Assembly (NCBI RefSeq): GCF_002356355.1
Contig: NZ_AP018052.1
Coordinates: forward strand, 1,860,001 to 1,924,000
Length of the DNA: 64,000 nucleotides
From: Thiohalobacter thiocyanaticus
GTDB taxonomy: Bacteria > Pseudomonadota > Gammaproteobacteria > Thiohalobacterales > Thiohalobacteraceae
Direction: 5' to 3'
Position numbers and translations under genes: made by a program. The notes below the pieces were generated by a model. That model was given only the letters and a program-made list of their open reading frames with translations. It made no database searches and was not told the origin of the DNA. Numbering within the stretch: the stretch's first letter is position 1; the number at the start of each line of letters is the position of its first letter. Of this stretch, positions 36,279 through 44,254 are shown one piece after another.

Positions 36279-36872
36279 TCAGATGAACAGGCAGACGTCG
36301 GACTCGCGCGCCACCGGCATGAAGTAGGTCGCGCCGACATAATCCAGGCCGTCGATGAACTCGCTGGAATCGAAGCCGAACACGTCCACCGTCATCTGGC
36401 AGGCGGACATCTTCACCTCAGCCTCGATGCACAGCTCGCGCAGTTCCTCGACCGTGGCCACGCCCTTGTTCTTGAAGGTCTTCTTCATCAGGGAGGTGGC
36501 GACCTTCTCGAAGCCCGGGATGCCGGCCATGATCAGGTTGGGCATCGGCCAGGTGATGTTCTGGAACCACTTGGGACCGAAGGGCATCTTCATCGGCATG
36601 GCCGGGTTGCCCAGCGGGCTGACCTCGGAGGGGATCTCCTTCTTCAGCAGCAGCAGGCCGTAGAAGGTGAAGAAGATGTGGGTGTCCCAGCCCAGGGCCG
36701 CGGCGGTGGAGGCCAGGATGAAGGGCGGATAGGCCCAGTCCAGGGTGCCCTTGGTGGCGATCAGCGCCATGCTCGGGGTCTTGCTCTGTTCGATGGCCTG
36801 GAGCTTCTGCGGCAACAGTTCGTCGAGCTTCTGGTTCAGCCACTGGTCCATCTGTGCATTCGGTTCAGTCAT
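36279..36872 (-). CDS. DsrE2-type protein (DsrE/DsrF/DrsH-like family)
   Basis: 197 residues of the DsrE2 group. These are sulfurtransferase-type proteins often encoded with rhodanese and TusA in sulfur oxidisers. Key parts: SMALIATKGTLDWAYPPFIL near residue 34 (opening strand and helix), WDTHIFFTFYGLLLLKK near 62, and the conserved-Cys segment EAEVKMSACQMTVDVFGFD near 150, with a second Cys in LRELCIEAE. Hydrophobic helices suggest membrane association. It follows a 143-residue unknown protein on the same strand (82-base gap) and ends at a strong terminator, so the pair forms a transcript likely controlled by the divergent TetR. Confidence 0.88.
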   Translation of the reverse strand: MTEPNAQMDQWLNQKLDELLPQKLQAIEQSKTPSMALIATKGTLDWAYPPFILASTAAALGWDTHIFFTFYGLLLLKKEIPSEVSPLGNPAMPMKMPFGPKWFQNITWPMPNLIMAGIPGFEKVATSLMKKTFKNKGVATVEELRELCIEAEVKMSACQMTVDVFGFDSSEFIDGLDYVGATYFMPVARESDVCLFI

Positions 36873-38227: not shown

Positions 38228-40516
38228 ATGATTACCCGACTGGCCGAACGGATCCTGCGTCTGCGCTGGCTGCTGATCCCGCTGCTGCTTGTGCTGACGC
38301 TGCTGGCCGGTGCAGGTGCGGGGAAACTGCACTTCACCAACGACTATCAGATCTTCTTCAGCAAGGAAAATCCCCAGCTGCTCGCCTTCGAGCGGCTGCA
38401 GGACACCTACACCCAGAACGACAACATCCTGTTCGTGCTGGCGCCCGAAGACAGTGAGGTATTCACCCGCGACACCCTGGCCGCGGTCGAGTGGCTGACC
38501 GAGCAGGCCTGGCAGATCCCCTATTCACTGCGGGTCGACTCCATCAGCAATTTCCAGCACACCTACGCCGAGGCCGACGATCTGGTGGTGGAAAACCTGG
38601 TCAGCAACGCCGCCGATCTGGACCCGGCAGAGATCGAGCGCATCCGCCGAGTCGCCCTGAGTGAACCGCTGCTGGTCAACCGTCTGATCGCCCCCGATGC
38701 CGAGGTTACCGGCGTGAACGTGGTGCTGCAGCTGCCGGGCGAAAACCTGACCGAGGAAACCCCCGAGGCGGTCGCGCACGCCCGGGACCTGGTCGAGCGC
38801 TTCCAGGCGCGCTACCCCGGCATCGAGGTCTACACCACCGGCATGGTGATGATGAACAACGCCTTCTCCGAGGAGACGCGGCACGATATGGCGACCCTGG
38901 TGCCGGCCATGTTCGCGTTGATCTTCGTGATCCTGCTGCTGTTGCTGCGTTCACTTACCGCCAGCCTTGCCACCTTCGTCGCTATCGGCCTGTCGATCCT
39001 CACCGCCATGGGCATGGCCGGCTGGCTTGGCATCACCCTGTCGCCGCCATCGGCCTTTGCGCCGCAGATCATCATGACCCTGGCCCTGGCGAACTGCGTG
39101 CACGTGCTGGTCAATTTCCTGCACAACATGCGACTGGGTCACGCCCGCCGTCAGGCCATGCTGGAGAGTCTGCGCATCAACATCCAGCCTATCTTCCTGA
39201 CCAGTCTGACCACCGCGATCGGCTTTCTCAGCATGAATTTCTCGGATGCGCCGCCGTTCCGGGATCTGGGCAACATCGTTGCCATGGGCATGGGCGCGGC
39301 CTTTGTGGCCTCGATCTTCCTGCTGCCCGCACTGATGCTGGTGCTGCCGCTGCGGGTACGTCCGCAGCCTGAGACCCGGCGCGTGGCGATGGACCGGCTG
39401 GCCGAGTTCTGTATCCGCCGCAAGCGCCCGCTGCTGTGGGGCATGAGCGCTCTGATCCTGCTGCTGATCGCCTTCATTCCCAGAAATGAACTCAATGACG
39501 AATTCGTCAAGTATTTCGATCCGTCCATCGAGTTCCGCGCCCACACCGATTTCGCTGTCGAGCATCTCACCGGCATGTACACCATCGAGTATTCGCTGCC
39601 GGCGGGCGAGCCGGGCGGCATCGCCGATCCGGGTTTCCTGAGTCGGGTCGAGGCCTTCGCCGACTGGTACCGGCAGCAACCGCAGGTGATGCACGTCAAT
39701 ACCTATACCGAAATCATGAAGCGCTTGAATATGAACCTGCATGGCGACGATCCGGATTGGTACCGTCTGCCACGGGAGCGCGAGCTGGCGGCCCAGTATC
39801 TGCTGCTCTACGAGATGTCACTGCCCTACGGACTGGATCTGAACAACCAGATCAACGTCGACAAGTCGTCCACGCGGCTGACCGTGACCGTGGAGTCAAT
39901 GTCGTCCAACGATCTGCTGGCGCTCGAGGCGCGGGCCCAGGCCTGGCTGCAGGAGCACGCCCCGGAACAGGTAACGGAGGGGGCCAGTCCCACGGTGATG
40001 TTCGCGCATATCGGCAAGCGCAATATCCAGAGCATGCTGGGCGGCACCACGCTGGCCCTGGTGCTGATCTCTATGATCCTGATCCTGGCGCTGCGTTCGC
40101 TGCGCATCGGCCTGATCAGCCTGATCCCCAACCTGGTCCCGGCGGCCATGGCCTTCGGCCTGTGGGGGCTGCTGGTCGGGCAGGTGGGGCTGGCGCTGTC
40201 GGTGGTCACCGGCATGACGCTGGGCATCGTGGTGGACGATACGGTGCATTTTCTGAGCAAGTATCTGCGGGCGCGGCGCGAACAGCACCTGTCCAGCGAG
40301 CACGCCGTGCGCTATGCCTTCCACACGGTCGGTACGGCGCTGTGGATGACCACGCTGATACTGGCGGCCGGCTTTCTGGTGCTGGCGCAGTCCGCCTTCG
40401 AGGTCAACGCCGGGATGGGTATGCTCAGTGCCATGACCATCCTGCTGGCACTGCTGGCCGATTTCCTGCTGCTGCCGCCGCTGCTGATGGCGCTGGATCG
40501 ACGGCGCAATTACTGA
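38228..40516 (+). CDS. RND/MMPL-family membrane exporter
   Basis: 762 residues with twelve predicted membrane segments in the RND pattern: one N-terminal (LIPLLLVLTLLAGAGAG), a large outer loop, five grouped around 215-380 (ALIFVILLLLLRSL, FVAIGLSILTAMGMAG), then the same arrangement repeated (LLWGMSALILLLIAFIP; ALVLISMILILALRSL; LALSVVTGMTLGIVVDDTVHF). The conserved GIVVDDTVHF is the family's proton-relay-like motif. Shorter than AcrB and without an adaptor gene, so it is of the MMPL type that moves lipids or hydrophobic molecules. Substrate unknown. Follows tetR by 39 bases, likely cotranscribed. Confidence 0.88.
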   Translation: MITRLAERILRLRWLLIPLLLVLTLLAGAGAGKLHFTNDYQIFFSKENPQLLAFERLQDTYTQNDNILFVLAPEDSEVFTRDTLAAVEWLTEQAWQIPYSLRVDSISNFQHTYAEADDLVVENLVSNAADLDPAEIERIRRVALSEPLLVNRLIAPDAEVTGVNVVLQLPGENLTEETPEAVAHARDLVERFQARYPGIEVYTTGMVMMNNAFSEETRHDMATLVPAMFALIFVILLLLLRSLTASLATFVAIGLSILTAMGMAGWLGITLSPPSAFAPQIIMTLALANCVHVLVNFLHNMRLGHARRQAMLESLRINIQPIFLTSLTTAIGFLSMNFSDAPPFRDLGNIVAMGMGAAFVASIFLLPALMLVLPLRVRPQPETRRVAMDRLAEFCIRRKRPLLWGMSALILLLIAFIPRNELNDEFVKYFDPSIEFRAHTDFAVEHLTGMYTIEYSLPAGEPGGIADPGFLSRVEAFADWYRQQPQVMHVNTYTEIMKRLNMNLHGDDPDWYRLPRERELAAQYLLLYEMSLPYGLDLNNQINVDKSSTRLTVTVESMSSNDLLALEARAQAWLQEHAPEQVTEGASPTVMFAHIGKRNIQSMLGGTTLALVLISMILILALRSLRIGLISLIPNLVPAAMAFGLWGLLVGQVGLALSVVTGMTLGIVVDDTVHFLSKYLRARREQHLSSEHAVRYAFHTVGTALWMTTLILAAGFLVLAQSAFEVNAGMGMLSAMTILLALLADFLLLPPLLMALDRRRNY

Positions 40517-40577
40517 TCCGGCCCGGTCCCTGCCTGCGGGTCATCCCCTGTCTTCCACCGGCAATACCGACCCAATC

Positions 40578-40591
40578 TTGATTCAAATCAA
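40578..40591. promoter_or_regulatory. FNR/ANR-type box upstream of sqr
   Basis: TTGATTCAAATCAA is a perfect match to the consensus TTGAT-N4-ATCAA; the symmetry extends one more base each side (C...G, 40577-40592). It is centred about 77 bases before the start point predicted from the sigma-54 signature. It suggests oxygen- or redox-linked control by a CRP/FNR-family protein. Confidence 0.7.
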
Positions 40592-40635
40592 GCTTTGCAG
40601 CGTCATGACACGCCTGACAGGCAGTTCCGCTTCCC

Positions 40636-40650
40636 TGGCATAGATTCTGC
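40636..40650 (+). promoter_or_regulatory. Sigma-54 promoter of sqr
   Basis: TGGCATAGATTCTGC has the obligatory GG (40637-40638) and GC (40649-40650) exactly ten bases apart; consensus TGGCAC-N5-TTGC is matched at most positions. The start point would be near 40662, with a 34-base leader. TGACA at 40606 and 40615, and CTGTC-T-GACAG at 40657-40667, are candidate activator half-sites nearby. Confidence 0.65.
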
Positions 40651-40695
40651 TCTATCCTGTCTGACAGAATGCATTCACATTGCAGGAGAACAGTA

Positions 40696-41967
40696 ATGGC
40701 ACATATTGTCATCATCGGCGCCAGCACCGGCGGCATGCCCGCCGCCTACGAGATCAAGGAAGCCCTGGGCAGCGACCACAGGGTGACCGTCATCAACGCC
40801 ACGCCGGATTTTCATTTCGTACCCTCCAATCCCTGGGTGGCCGTGGGCTGGCGCAGCCGTGCCGACATCAGCTTCGACATCAAGCCCAGGCTGGAGAACA
40901 AGGGTATCGATTTCATCCCGGTCGCGGTCAGCGAGATCAAGCCGGACGACAACAAGCTGGTCCTGACCGACGGCCAGGCCATCGACTACGACTACCTGGT
41001 GATCGCCACCGGTCCCAAACTGGCCTTCGACGAGATCGAGGGATTGGGGCCGGATGGCTTTACCGAGTCGGTCTGCACCGTCGGGCACGCGGAGAAGGCC
41101 TATGGCGGCTGGCAGAAATTCGTGCATGAACCGGGGCCGATCGTGGTCGGCGCGGTACAGGGTGCTTCCTGTTTCGGGCCGGCCTATGAATTCGCCTTCA
41201 TCATGGACGCGGATCTGCGCAACCGTAAACTGCGCGACAAGGTCCCCATGACTTTCGTGACCTCAGAGCCCTACATCGGCCATCTCGGCCTGGGCGGGGT
41301 GGGCGATTCCAAGGGCATGATGGAATCCGAGCTGCGCCAGCGTCATATCAACTGGATCACCAACGCCAAGGTCGACCGGATCGAAGCCGGAAAGATGTAC
41401 GTCTCCGAACACAATGACGATGGCGAGGTGATCAAGCAGCACGAACTGCCGTTCAACTATTCCATGATGCTTCCGGCCTTCAAGGGCGTGGATGCCGTTG
41501 CCGCCCTGGGCGAGGAACTGGTCAACCCGCGCGGCTTCGTCAAGGTCGACGAGTACCAGCGCAACCCCAAATGGCACAACATCTATTCCGTGGGCGTATG
41601 CATCGCCATCCCACCGGTGGAAGCCACGCCGGTGCCGACCGGCACACCCAAGACCGGCTACATGATCGAGTCCATGGTCACGGCCGTGGCGCACAACATA
41701 AAGAATGACCTGGAGAGCAAGCCCGTGGACCGGGAGGCGACCTGGAACGCCATCTGCCTGGCCGACATGGGCGATACCGGCGTGGCCTTCGTGGCCATGC
41801 CGCAGATCCCGCCGCGCAACGTCTCCTGGATGAAGAAGGGCAAATGGGTGCACTACGCCAAGGTCGCCTTCGAAAAATACTTTCTGTCCAAGATGAAGCG
41901 CGGCTCAACCGAGCCGGTGTACGAGAAGTACGTGCTGAAGGCGATAGGCATCGCCAAGCTCAAATAG
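40696..41967 (+). CDS. sqr: Sulfide:quinone oxidoreductase family flavoprotein
   Basis: 423 residues. Oxidises sulfide to zero-valent sulfur and reduces quinone at the membrane. The FAD motif is HIVIIGASTGGMPAAYEI; LVIATGPKL is the second nucleotide contact. Three cysteines sit in the places of the SQR redox triad: ESVCTVGHAEKAYGG near residue 125, QGASCFGPAYEFAF near 158 and YSVGVCIAIPPVEATP near 308. Flavocytochrome c subunits have only two, which favours SQR. A basic amphipathic C-terminus (YEKYVLKAIGIAKLK) could bind the membrane. The ATG at 40696 has AGGAGA upstream; an ATG at 40669 precedes it in frame without one. The subtype (type VI or III) cannot be fixed by eye. Confidence 0.88.
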   Translation: MAHIVIIGASTGGMPAAYEIKEALGSDHRVTVINATPDFHFVPSNPWVAVGWRSRADISFDIKPRLENKGIDFIPVAVSEIKPDDNKLVLTDGQAIDYDYLVIATGPKLAFDEIEGLGPDGFTESVCTVGHAEKAYGGWQKFVHEPGPIVVGAVQGASCFGPAYEFAFIMDADLRNRKLRDKVPMTFVTSEPYIGHLGLGGVGDSKGMMESELRQRHINWITNAKVDRIEAGKMYVSEHNDDGEVIKQHELPFNYSMMLPAFKGVDAVAALGEELVNPRGFVKVDEYQRNPKWHNIYSVGVCIAIPPVEATPVPTGTPKTGYMIESMVTAVAHNIKNDLESKPVDREATWNAICLADMGDTGVAFVAMPQIPPRNVSWMKKGKWVHYAKVAFEKYFLSKMKRGSTEPVYEKYVLKAIGIAKLK

Positions 41968-41980
41968 GAAGGAAGACGCA

Positions 41981-42005
41981 CTCATGGCCGCCTTCGCGGC
42001 CTGAG
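41981..42005 (+). terminator. Stable hairpin after sqr
   Basis: CTCA-T-GGCCGC-CTTC-GCGGCC-TGAG forms a ten-pair stem with a UUCG-like tetraloop neighbourhood and one bulged T. No T-tract follows, so it may act in mRNA 3'-end stability or partial termination before the regulator gene. Downstream, TTCGGA (42023) and TCCGAA (42037) form another small inverted repeat. Confidence 0.5.
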
Positions 42006-42106
42006 TGTCATAACATGTCATATTCGGAGGATTGTATCCGAACGTGACTTTTGCTGTCATTGGACGACACTGTCATGAACAATTCTGACTTGATACGGGA
42101 AGCCCC

Positions 42107-43450
42107 ATGTCAAACCGAATCCGTCCCAGCTGTGAGCAGATCATCGATATCATGCCGAACCCCTTCGTGGTCATCGATGGCGATTTCAATATCGTCGCGG
42201 CCAATCGAAGCTACCGCGAGCGCTACGGTGTCGAGTCCGACCAGATAGTCGGTCGCAAGTGTCACCAGGTCTCACACCATTCCGATGAGCCCTGCAGCCA
42301 CCATGGCGAGCACTGCCCGCTGGAGGAAGTCTTCAATCGGCGCCAGGCAACCCAGGTCATGCACATCCACTATGATGGCAACGGACGCGAGGAATACGTC
42401 CAGCTGCATGCCAGCCCCCTGCTGGATGACGACGGCCGGGTGCGCTATATCGGCGAAACCATTTTCCCGGTTGCGGCACCGGATGCGACCACCGATACCC
42501 TGCTGGTCGGCCGTTCAAGGCCGCTGCTGCGCATGACCAGTCTGCTGCAGCGGGTCGCCCCCACCCAGACCACGGCGCTGCTGCTGGGCGAAAGCGGGGT
42601 GGGCAAGGAGGAGGTGGCCAAGTACATCCACCATTATTCCCGTCGCGCCAACGGCGCCTTCATCGTGGTGGATTGCGGGGCGCTGGGCGAGAGCCTGATC
42701 GAGAGTGAGTTGTTCGGATACGAGAAGGGCGCCTTCACCGGCGCGGCCCAGCGCAAGAAGGGGCTGTTCGAGGCCGCCAACGGCGGTACCCTGTTCATCG
42801 ACGAGGTGGGCGAACTGCCGCTGCCCCTGCAGACCAAACTTCTGCGGGTACTGGAAAGCGGGCAGATCCGGCGTATCGGGGGTACCGACTACATCGATGT
42901 GGACGTGCGCATCATCACCGCCACCAACCGCGATCTTCAGCGCATGGTCGCTGCCGGCGAGTTCCGCCAGGATCTGTATTATCGTCTGTCCGCCTTCCCG
43001 GTCTATGTCCCGACCCTGCGTGAACGCAAGGACGACATCCCGCAGCTGGCCGAGCACTTCCTCGCCGGCATGGAAGGGGCGGACCGGCACCTGCCGTTGT
43101 CCGCAGAGGTGATCGAGGCACTGCTGGATCATGATTATCCGGGCAATGTGCGCGAACTGCGCAATATCATCGAGCGGGCCGCCATCCTGGCCGCCGACGA
43201 CATGATCCGGCCCGAGCACATCGTGTTCGAGGATACCCAGACGCCCATCGACACCCAGGTGCCCTCACACCGTACCGACACGCTGCTCTCGCGGCGCAGT
43301 GGCCGGCTCAGCGCGCAGGACGTGATGTCGGCCCTGGATCGAGCCAACGGCCACCGCGCCCGGGCCGCCGGGCTGCTGGGCGTGAGCGAACGCACCCTGT
43401 ATCGCTACATCAGCAAGCTCAAGCTCGATATCAGCCATCCAGCACCCTGA
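42107..43450 (+). CDS. PAS-containing sigma-54-dependent activator, likely regulator of sqr
   Basis: 447 residues. An N-terminal PAS domain ([19 protein letters not shown]) contains a Cys/His cluster, [20 protein letters not shown] followed by CPLEEVF, that could bind a metal, heme or react with sulfur species. The AAA+ domain has Walker [10 protein letters not shown], the sigma-54 contact loop KGAFTGAAQ, Walker [13 protein letters not shown] and the arginine-finger region [15 protein letters not shown] Fis-type helix-turn-helix ends it ([20 protein letters not shown]). There is no receiver domain, so signals are sensed directly. It lies 139 bases after sqr, whose promoter has a sigma-54 signature. 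Confidence 0.9.
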
Positions 43451-43588: not shown

Positions 43589-44254
43589 TTACTTGGCCTT
43601 GCCCCCGACGGTGGTCAGACCCAGGATCTCCCAGTTCTGCATGCCGCCGCGATACCACTTGATCTTGTGCGCCGGGTAGCCGAACTTGAGCAGGGACTGG
43701 ATGTTGTTCGGGGACTGGCCGCACCACATGCCGTTGCAGAACATCACCAGCGTCTTCACATTGCTGAAGTCCCACAGGCCTTCCTGCTTGCGCGCGCCGA
43801 ACTGGTTTTCCAGGATATCCTCGATGGTGAAGGGATCGGAGCGGCTGGCATTGAGCTGGGTCCAGGGGATATTGACCGAGCCGGGGATGGTGCCGCGCTC
43901 GATCCAGTCCGGCGTGCGTGAATCGATGACCAGGATGCTGTCGTCGCCGTTCTCCTTGCGCTGCAGGTAGTCCAGCATCTCGGTCTCGGCGATGGTCTCT
44001 ACGCCCGGCGCCAGTTGCATCGGCTGAATGCAGAAGGGCGGGCACTTGCGCGAGGTCTTGGAAAAGGCCGGATCGACCGTGTTCTTCTCGTTCTGATTGC
44101 GCATGATGGTGACCTTCTTGCCCTGATGGGTCACGGTCACGCTGGGAAGATCGGGCGTGATCTTGACGGCAAGCTCGTCATCGGCGGCCAGGGCCGGTGC
44201 GCTCAGGCACAGGCCCAGCAGGATGCTCGATACAGTGGTACGGATGCGATTCAT
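43589..44254 (-). CDS. Periplasmic rhodanese-domain protein
   Basis: 221 residues with a signal peptide (ISSILLGLCLSAPALAAD-type, cleaved near residue 24). A small N-terminal beta domain (AVKITPDLPSVTVTHQGKKV) is followed by CPPFCIQPMQLAPGVETI and a rhodanese domain: ILVIDSRTPDWIERGTIPGS, the active loop VMFCNGMWCGQSPNN and a last strand KIKWYRGGMQNWEILG. The active loop has two cysteines and is longer than that of sulfurtransferases of the CRKGV type, so its activity is uncertain. ATG at 44254 with GGAGAG upstream. Ends at a strong terminator and follows a 43-residue secreted protein gene on the same strand. Confidence 0.88.
   Translation of the reverse strand: MNRIRTTVSSILLGLCLSAPALAADDELAVKITPDLPSVTVTHQGKKVTIMRNQNEKNTVDPAFSKTSRKCPPFCIQPMQLAPGVETIAETEMLDYLQRKENGDDSILVIDSRTPDWIERGTIPGSVNIPWTQLNASRSDPFTIEDILENQFGARKQEGLWDFSNVKTLVMFCNGMWCGQSPNNIQSLLKFGYPAHKIKWYRGGMQNWEILGLTTVGGKAK

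Follow-up and report, generated by a model that had tools for sequence, protein, structure and literature searches.

What switches on the sulfide:quinone reductase gene (sqr) of Thiohalobacter thiocyanaticus is the question raised by the short stretch of DNA ahead of it. A preliminary description of the window, that is, of the whole 64,000-nt stretch analysed, had noted there a sigma-54 signature, an FNR-type box, repeated TGACA motifs and a palindrome, and had proposed that sulfide oxidation is placed in this way under both a redox/oxygen signal and a sulfide-type signal.

The sqr promoter and the neighbouring activator

The sqr gene (40696..41967, plus strand) encodes a type I sulfide:quinone reductase (SQR) of 423 aa, the type being assigned by reference to the Acidithiobacillus enzyme, and phmmer matched its product to the SQR structures PDB 3sz0/3t31 (E 6e-166), the homology with 3sz0 being full length over residues 2-423. 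Translation is placed at 40696 rather than at 40669, where the open frame has its first ATG and the ORF finder put the start, because the SQR homology begins at 40696, which aligns with residue 1 of the PDB SQR, and a good ribosome site (Shine-Dalgarno motif AGGAG) lies just 5′ of it; position 40669 is only 7 nt past the predicted transcription start. An MMPL/RND-type transporter gene (38228-40516) ends 180 nt ahead of the sqr start, and a few kb upstream lies, on the other strand, a gene for a DsrE2 sulfur carrier (36279-36872; NCBIfam SulfCarrDsrE2, above cut-off). The DNA 5′ of the sqr promoter differs in G010, the third species of the genus, where the promoter module is kept and the upstream neighbourhood has changed.

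The gene said beforehand to encode a PAS sigma-54 activator is indeed present after sqr, and its product belongs by sequence to the FisR family, as a predicted persulfide sensor. This gene, fisR (42107..43450, plus strand), encodes an N-terminal sensor, an AAA+ sigma-54 interaction domain and a C-terminal Fis-type helix-turn-helix (Pfam PAS_4, Sigma54_activat and HTH_8, respectively). The sensor carries Cys52, Cys63 and Cys70, spaced as C-x10-C-x6-C, a motif found in all 41 FisR homologues including that of Cupriavidus metallidurans and in none of three outgroup sigma-54 activators (0/3). Phylogenetically, the window FisR falls in a gammaproteobacterial clade, apart from the Thiobacillus-type and Cupriavidus-type clades. 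In C. metallidurans, fisR is divergent to a persulfide dioxygenase-like (PDO) gene and an SQR-like gene, both identified by reading translations, as would be expected from the Cupriavidus FisR system already studied; the two FisR proteins group as homologues with the common three-cysteine motif, though their subclades differ. The genome of T. thiocyanaticus encodes a second FisR (1147631-1148938, within locus L041, 1144000-1152500), which groups with the Cupriavidus type; its gene is divergent to a PDO-like gene with a sigma-54 site of its own (TGGCACATCGCTTGCA) and has a YeeE/TsuA-like transporter gene on its other side. Convergent to the fisR of the window lies a gene for a Rhodanese-domain protein (Pfam Rhodanese) with an apparent signal peptide (43589..44254, minus strand), and a rhodanese gene adjoins fisR in six of the seven family genomes with a sqr-fisR pair. 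Ahead of the rhodanese gene, a further sigma-54 match (TGGCACTCTTCCTGCA, 44601-44586, minus strand) was not accepted, since it falls within the last coding stretch of the adjacent gene, which encodes an aldolase (DAHP synthase-like), and may be conserved for coding reasons.

The GG-N10-GC signature noticed upstream of sqr is worthless alone, with 811 occurrences on the plus strand of the window, but here it forms part of TGGCATAGATTCTGCT (40636..40651, plus strand), which has TGGC at -24 and TGC at -12 at the exact sigma-54 spacing. With the -24 GG at 40637-38 and the -12 GC at 40649-50, the computed geometry predicts a transcription start at 40662. Under a hand-made weight matrix based on consensus values, TGGCATAGATTCTGCT was the top-scoring sigma-54 16-mer on both strands of the whole 64 kb, and rpoN is encoded in the genome (RpoN match of 239 bits). 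Comparison with orthologous sqr genes, which the preliminary description had proposed as a check, covered the family genomes and 80 named loci and yielded 85 scoreable sqr upstream regions. A strong sigma-54 site was present in 27 of the 34 with a fisR neighbour, so that linkage of fisR to a sulfide/persulfide-oxidation gene is there combined with a sigma-54 promoter, and in none of the 51 without one (Fisher 5e-16, a value that overstates independence among related loci, although on the side without fisR there is no exception); in the remaining seven of the 34 no such site was found within 300 nt of sqr. From this split we judge the sigma-54 promoter of sqr, a prediction from sequence, to be real. 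Across the three species of the genus the -24 and -12 elements, the core of the FNR-type box, GTCATGACA and TGACA are invariant or nearly so. A DNA search of the sqr promoter against plasmids gave no match.

The palindrome CTGTC-T-GACAG (CTGTCTGACAG, 40657..40667), which does lie across the predicted start, was rejected as an operator: perfect 5+1+5 palindromes number 136 in the window, CTGTC-N-GACAG is not above chance, and in the three-species alignment the palindrome is absent from G010. On these counts it is best read as a chance occurrence.

An FNR-type box ahead of the promoter

The perfect TTGAT-N4-ATCAA box reported upstream of sqr is likewise there (TTGATTCAAATCAA, 40578..40591, centred at -77.5 from the predicted start), and it is the only perfect FNR box in the window. 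Dinucleotide shuffling of the 300-nt sqr upstream region produced such a box in 0.04% of cases (P ~0.0004), and the genome contains seven perfect boxes against none for a reversed control pattern. All three species of the genus retain the box (TTGATTCACATCAA and CTGATCCAGATCAA being the variants), which is weak evidence of selection, as the three are close relatives. Outside the genus the conservation looked for does not extend to sqr-activator pairs: in the 85-locus comparison no fisR-linked sqr had the box, and with both cores intact and 9-10 of 10 matches its occurrences were confined to the genus (all three species) and to L054 and L055, two family members whose sqr has no fisR neighbour. 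Conservation beside sqr-activator pairs is accordingly seen for the sigma-54 site and, within the genus, for the box, which fails the check in fisR-linked sqr genes elsewhere. In L054 and L055 the box (ATGATCTATATCAA) lies exactly 22 nt before TATCAA, the geometry of class II FNR-dependent sigma-70 promoters. The distribution of the box across the family would thus give three sqr layouts within one family, one FNR/sigma-70-like, one FisR/sigma-54 and one combined.

The box could have lost its function, as a remnant of an ancestral sqr promoter of the FNR/sigma-70 kind, or could have arisen by chance and been kept by descent. Among fisR-linked sqr genes the box occurs in one genus only, whose species are close, and the other perfect boxes of the genome precede mixed genes, as one would then expect. 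The core TGAT-N4-ATCAA is nevertheless kept in G010 despite almost complete divergence of the sequence just upstream, and we regard a relic or chance site as a somewhat unlikely explanation. Another possibility is that the box serves a separate, overlapping sigma-70 promoter giving anoxic, FisR-independent expression, as the class II spacing in L054 and L055 and a weak -10 hexamer in the window (TATCCT, 40653-40658; TATCAT in G010), roughly at class I distance downstream, might suggest. However, at class II spacing the window has the hexamer CTGACA, which is no -10, the class I distance is about 2 bases off and a -35 is not visible, so that the position is unsuited to activation of a sigma-70 promoter by FNR and we consider this reading unlikely. 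The pattern of an FNR box with a sigma-54 promoter was found in six of 369 genomes of the class, namely that of the window and five others, which were dismissed as parallels because they precede unrelated genes wherever the gene could be seen. The FNR box on the sqr promoter is unusual and, among the fisR-linked sqr genes compared, genus-specific, and a function for it is plausible.

Predicted FisR operators on both sides of sqr

The two TGACA motifs nine bases apart, at 40606-40610 and 40615-40619, are present as described, and TGACA-N4-TGACA is unique in the window. The operator to which they probably belong was derived from the 220 nt before fisR in 35 loci, where TGTCA/TGACA was counted 135 times and 13.8 would be expected, with enrichment in all groups and TCATGACA as the top word (21/35 loci). 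The FisR operator is thus predicted to be a palindrome resembling TGTCATGACA, not a tandem of TGACA. Upstream of sqr, CGTCATGACA (40601..40610, centred at -56.5) agrees with TGTCATGACA in 9 of 10 positions and is invariant in the genus as GTCATGACA, and the second TGACA (40615..40619, plus strand), invariant there with its 4-nt spacing, would be an additional half-site; we accordingly take both TGACA motifs to be predicted FisR half-sites. A TGTCATGACA box within one mismatch appeared in 1.3% of shuffles of the sqr upstream region. With at most one mismatch, 22 boxes were found in 18 clade-B upstreams and none in the 51 sqr upstream regions without fisR, where TGTCA/TGACA shows no clear enrichment either (24 vs 18.6 in dinucleotide shuffles). 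Conservation of TGACA-type sites beside orthologous sqr-activator pairs, also proposed as a check, is therefore seen at the level of the locus. A genome-wide FisR regulon could not be drawn from perfect TGTCATGACA, which has zero sites in the genome, and a literature search with TGTCATGACA returned no FisR-related title among the matches listed. In the megaplasmid of C. metallidurans CH34 (L175), the fisR-PDO intergenic region contains TGCCA/TTGGCA repeats rather than TGTCATGACA, which suggests that the Cupriavidus-type FisR subclade may use a different operator.

The arrangement of operators depends on that of the genes. Divergent fisR genes prevail in the Thiobacillus-type clade, whose boxes thus serve a shared region; in the clade of the window FisR, fisR lies 3′ of sqr on the same strand, and in most of this clade the operator stands between the two genes, about 1.3 kb past the sqr promoter. 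In same-clade loci outside the genus the sqr-fisR gaps (1.7 kb in all) contained 10 boxes, the sqr bodies (15.2 kb) none and the upstream DNA (6.4 kb) two, both from one genome; a sigma-54 site before fisR was absent in all but one of these loci. The sqr-fisR intergenic region of the window (41968..42106) has four TGTCA sites, at 42006, 42016, 42055 and 42071, which we propose as the main FisR operator cluster, and in the genus a near-perfect box and a half-site also stand ahead of the sqr promoter. The position of the operator hints at a native downstream enhancer, and the cluster may activate sqr from downstream, autoregulate fisR, or both. One could go further and suppose that the sqr promoter of this FisR clade is driven mainly from such an enhancer about 1.3 kb on, with FNR gating added in the genus as an AND gate of sulfide and low oxygen, an extension that we hold only tentatively. 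It may also be that FisR activates sqr from the downstream cluster only, CGTCATGACA-N4-TGACA being dispensable, as the counts outside the genus would allow; the upstream site is, however, invariant in the genus and the cluster may serve autoregulation of fisR instead, so that we think this rather improbable.

Proposed control and its relation to known systems

We consider it quite likely that sqr is transcribed from a sigma-54 promoter starting near 40662 that is switched on by the adjacent FisR, and that the FNR-type box tunes this output in the genus. Conservation of promoter and operators, gene linkage, the cysteines and the genes for sigma-54 and FNR are seen directly in the DNA, and from them we infer the binding, the signal, the position of the start and whatever effect FNR may have. 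FisR would sense sulfane sulfur or persulfide via Cys52, Cys63 and Cys70 and would bind operators of the TGTCATGACA type, namely the imperfect one at 40601-40619 and the cluster at 42006-42075; bound FisR would reach the sigma-54 RNA polymerase by looping and use its AAA+ domain to melt the promoter, SQR thus being made during sulfide oxidation. The FNR-type box at -77.5 would have been added or kept in the genus, where low oxygen most likely tunes the FisR-dependent output. The sigma-54/FisR part of this proposal is well supported by the comparisons, and its FNR part is plausible. A canonical FNR with C-x2-C-x5-C and a fourth cysteine is encoded in the genome (299 bits, the NCBIfam cut-off being 228), so that an FNR with Fe-S cysteines accompanies the TTGAT-N4-ATCAA box; the FNR gene (L003) is preceded by a perfect box and followed by a cytochrome cbb3 oxidase-like gene. 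That the box is read instead by the DNR/NNR-type (nitric oxide) regulator, a CRP/FNR-family protein encoded beside norC/norB-like genes, with a similar recognition helix and without the N-terminal cysteine cluster, seems quite improbable, given that the box of the canonical FNR gene itself suggests that this box type is an FNR target.

Sigma-54 control of sqr, which the preliminary description did not know as established, has in fact been established since 2017, for FisR in Cupriavidus and later in Acinetobacter, as PMC7315123, PMC9774590 and PMC12170894 indicate. The sulfide-oxidising genes of Cupriavidus pinatubonensis JMP134 are under FisR and sigma-54 (Li et al. 2017, Mol Microbiol 105:373, as cited in PMC9774590 and PMC7315123), and known FisR proteins combine three conserved cysteines with sigma-54 (the same two articles). 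To judge from these, the window resembles that system in having a sigma-54 promoter ahead of sulfide-oxidation genes, an adjacent Fis-type AAA+ activator and three sensor cysteines, whose spacing was checked on the relative C. metallidurans, and departs from it in that the gene controlled encodes a type I SQR, fisR lies downstream on the same strand, the predicted operator resembles TGTCATGACA, there is an FNR-type box in addition and FisR belongs to another subclade. In Acinetobacter baumannii a FisR-controlled PDO1-SQR operon has been described (Walsh et al. 2020, PMC7315123), in which sqr is likewise sulfide-induced, with a FisR activator and a predicted sigma-54 promoter; unlike in the window, that FisR is without regulatory cysteines and divergent from the operon, and the portions of the article consulted report no FNR box. 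A precedent for positive action of FNR on a sigma-54 promoter is E. coli c5038, encoding an alpha-ketoglutarate transporter, which has its own activator (KguR) and whose output rises with FNR in anoxia, although gene, activator and signal differ and c5038 has no link to sulfur (PMC5318444). Class II FNR-dependent sigma-70 promoters have the same box, and the sqr upstream regions of L054 and L055 match their spacing exactly, whereas in the window the box lies 44 bases before the sigma-54 promoter and not 22 before a -10.

What this locus would add to the known FisR/sigma-54 control is thus the genus-specific FNR-type box and the putative operator cluster 3′ of sqr. With the TGTCATGACA operator, derived from sulfur oxidisers of both the beta- and the gammaproteobacteria, regulons of FisR become easier to predict, and the clade whose operators occur only behind the target gene provides a test in nature of whether an enhancer can act from there. 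Should the FNR box prove functional, sulfur and oxygen together would govern sulfide oxidation in the genus through a single sigma-54 promoter, with a bearing on micro-oxic sulfide removal.
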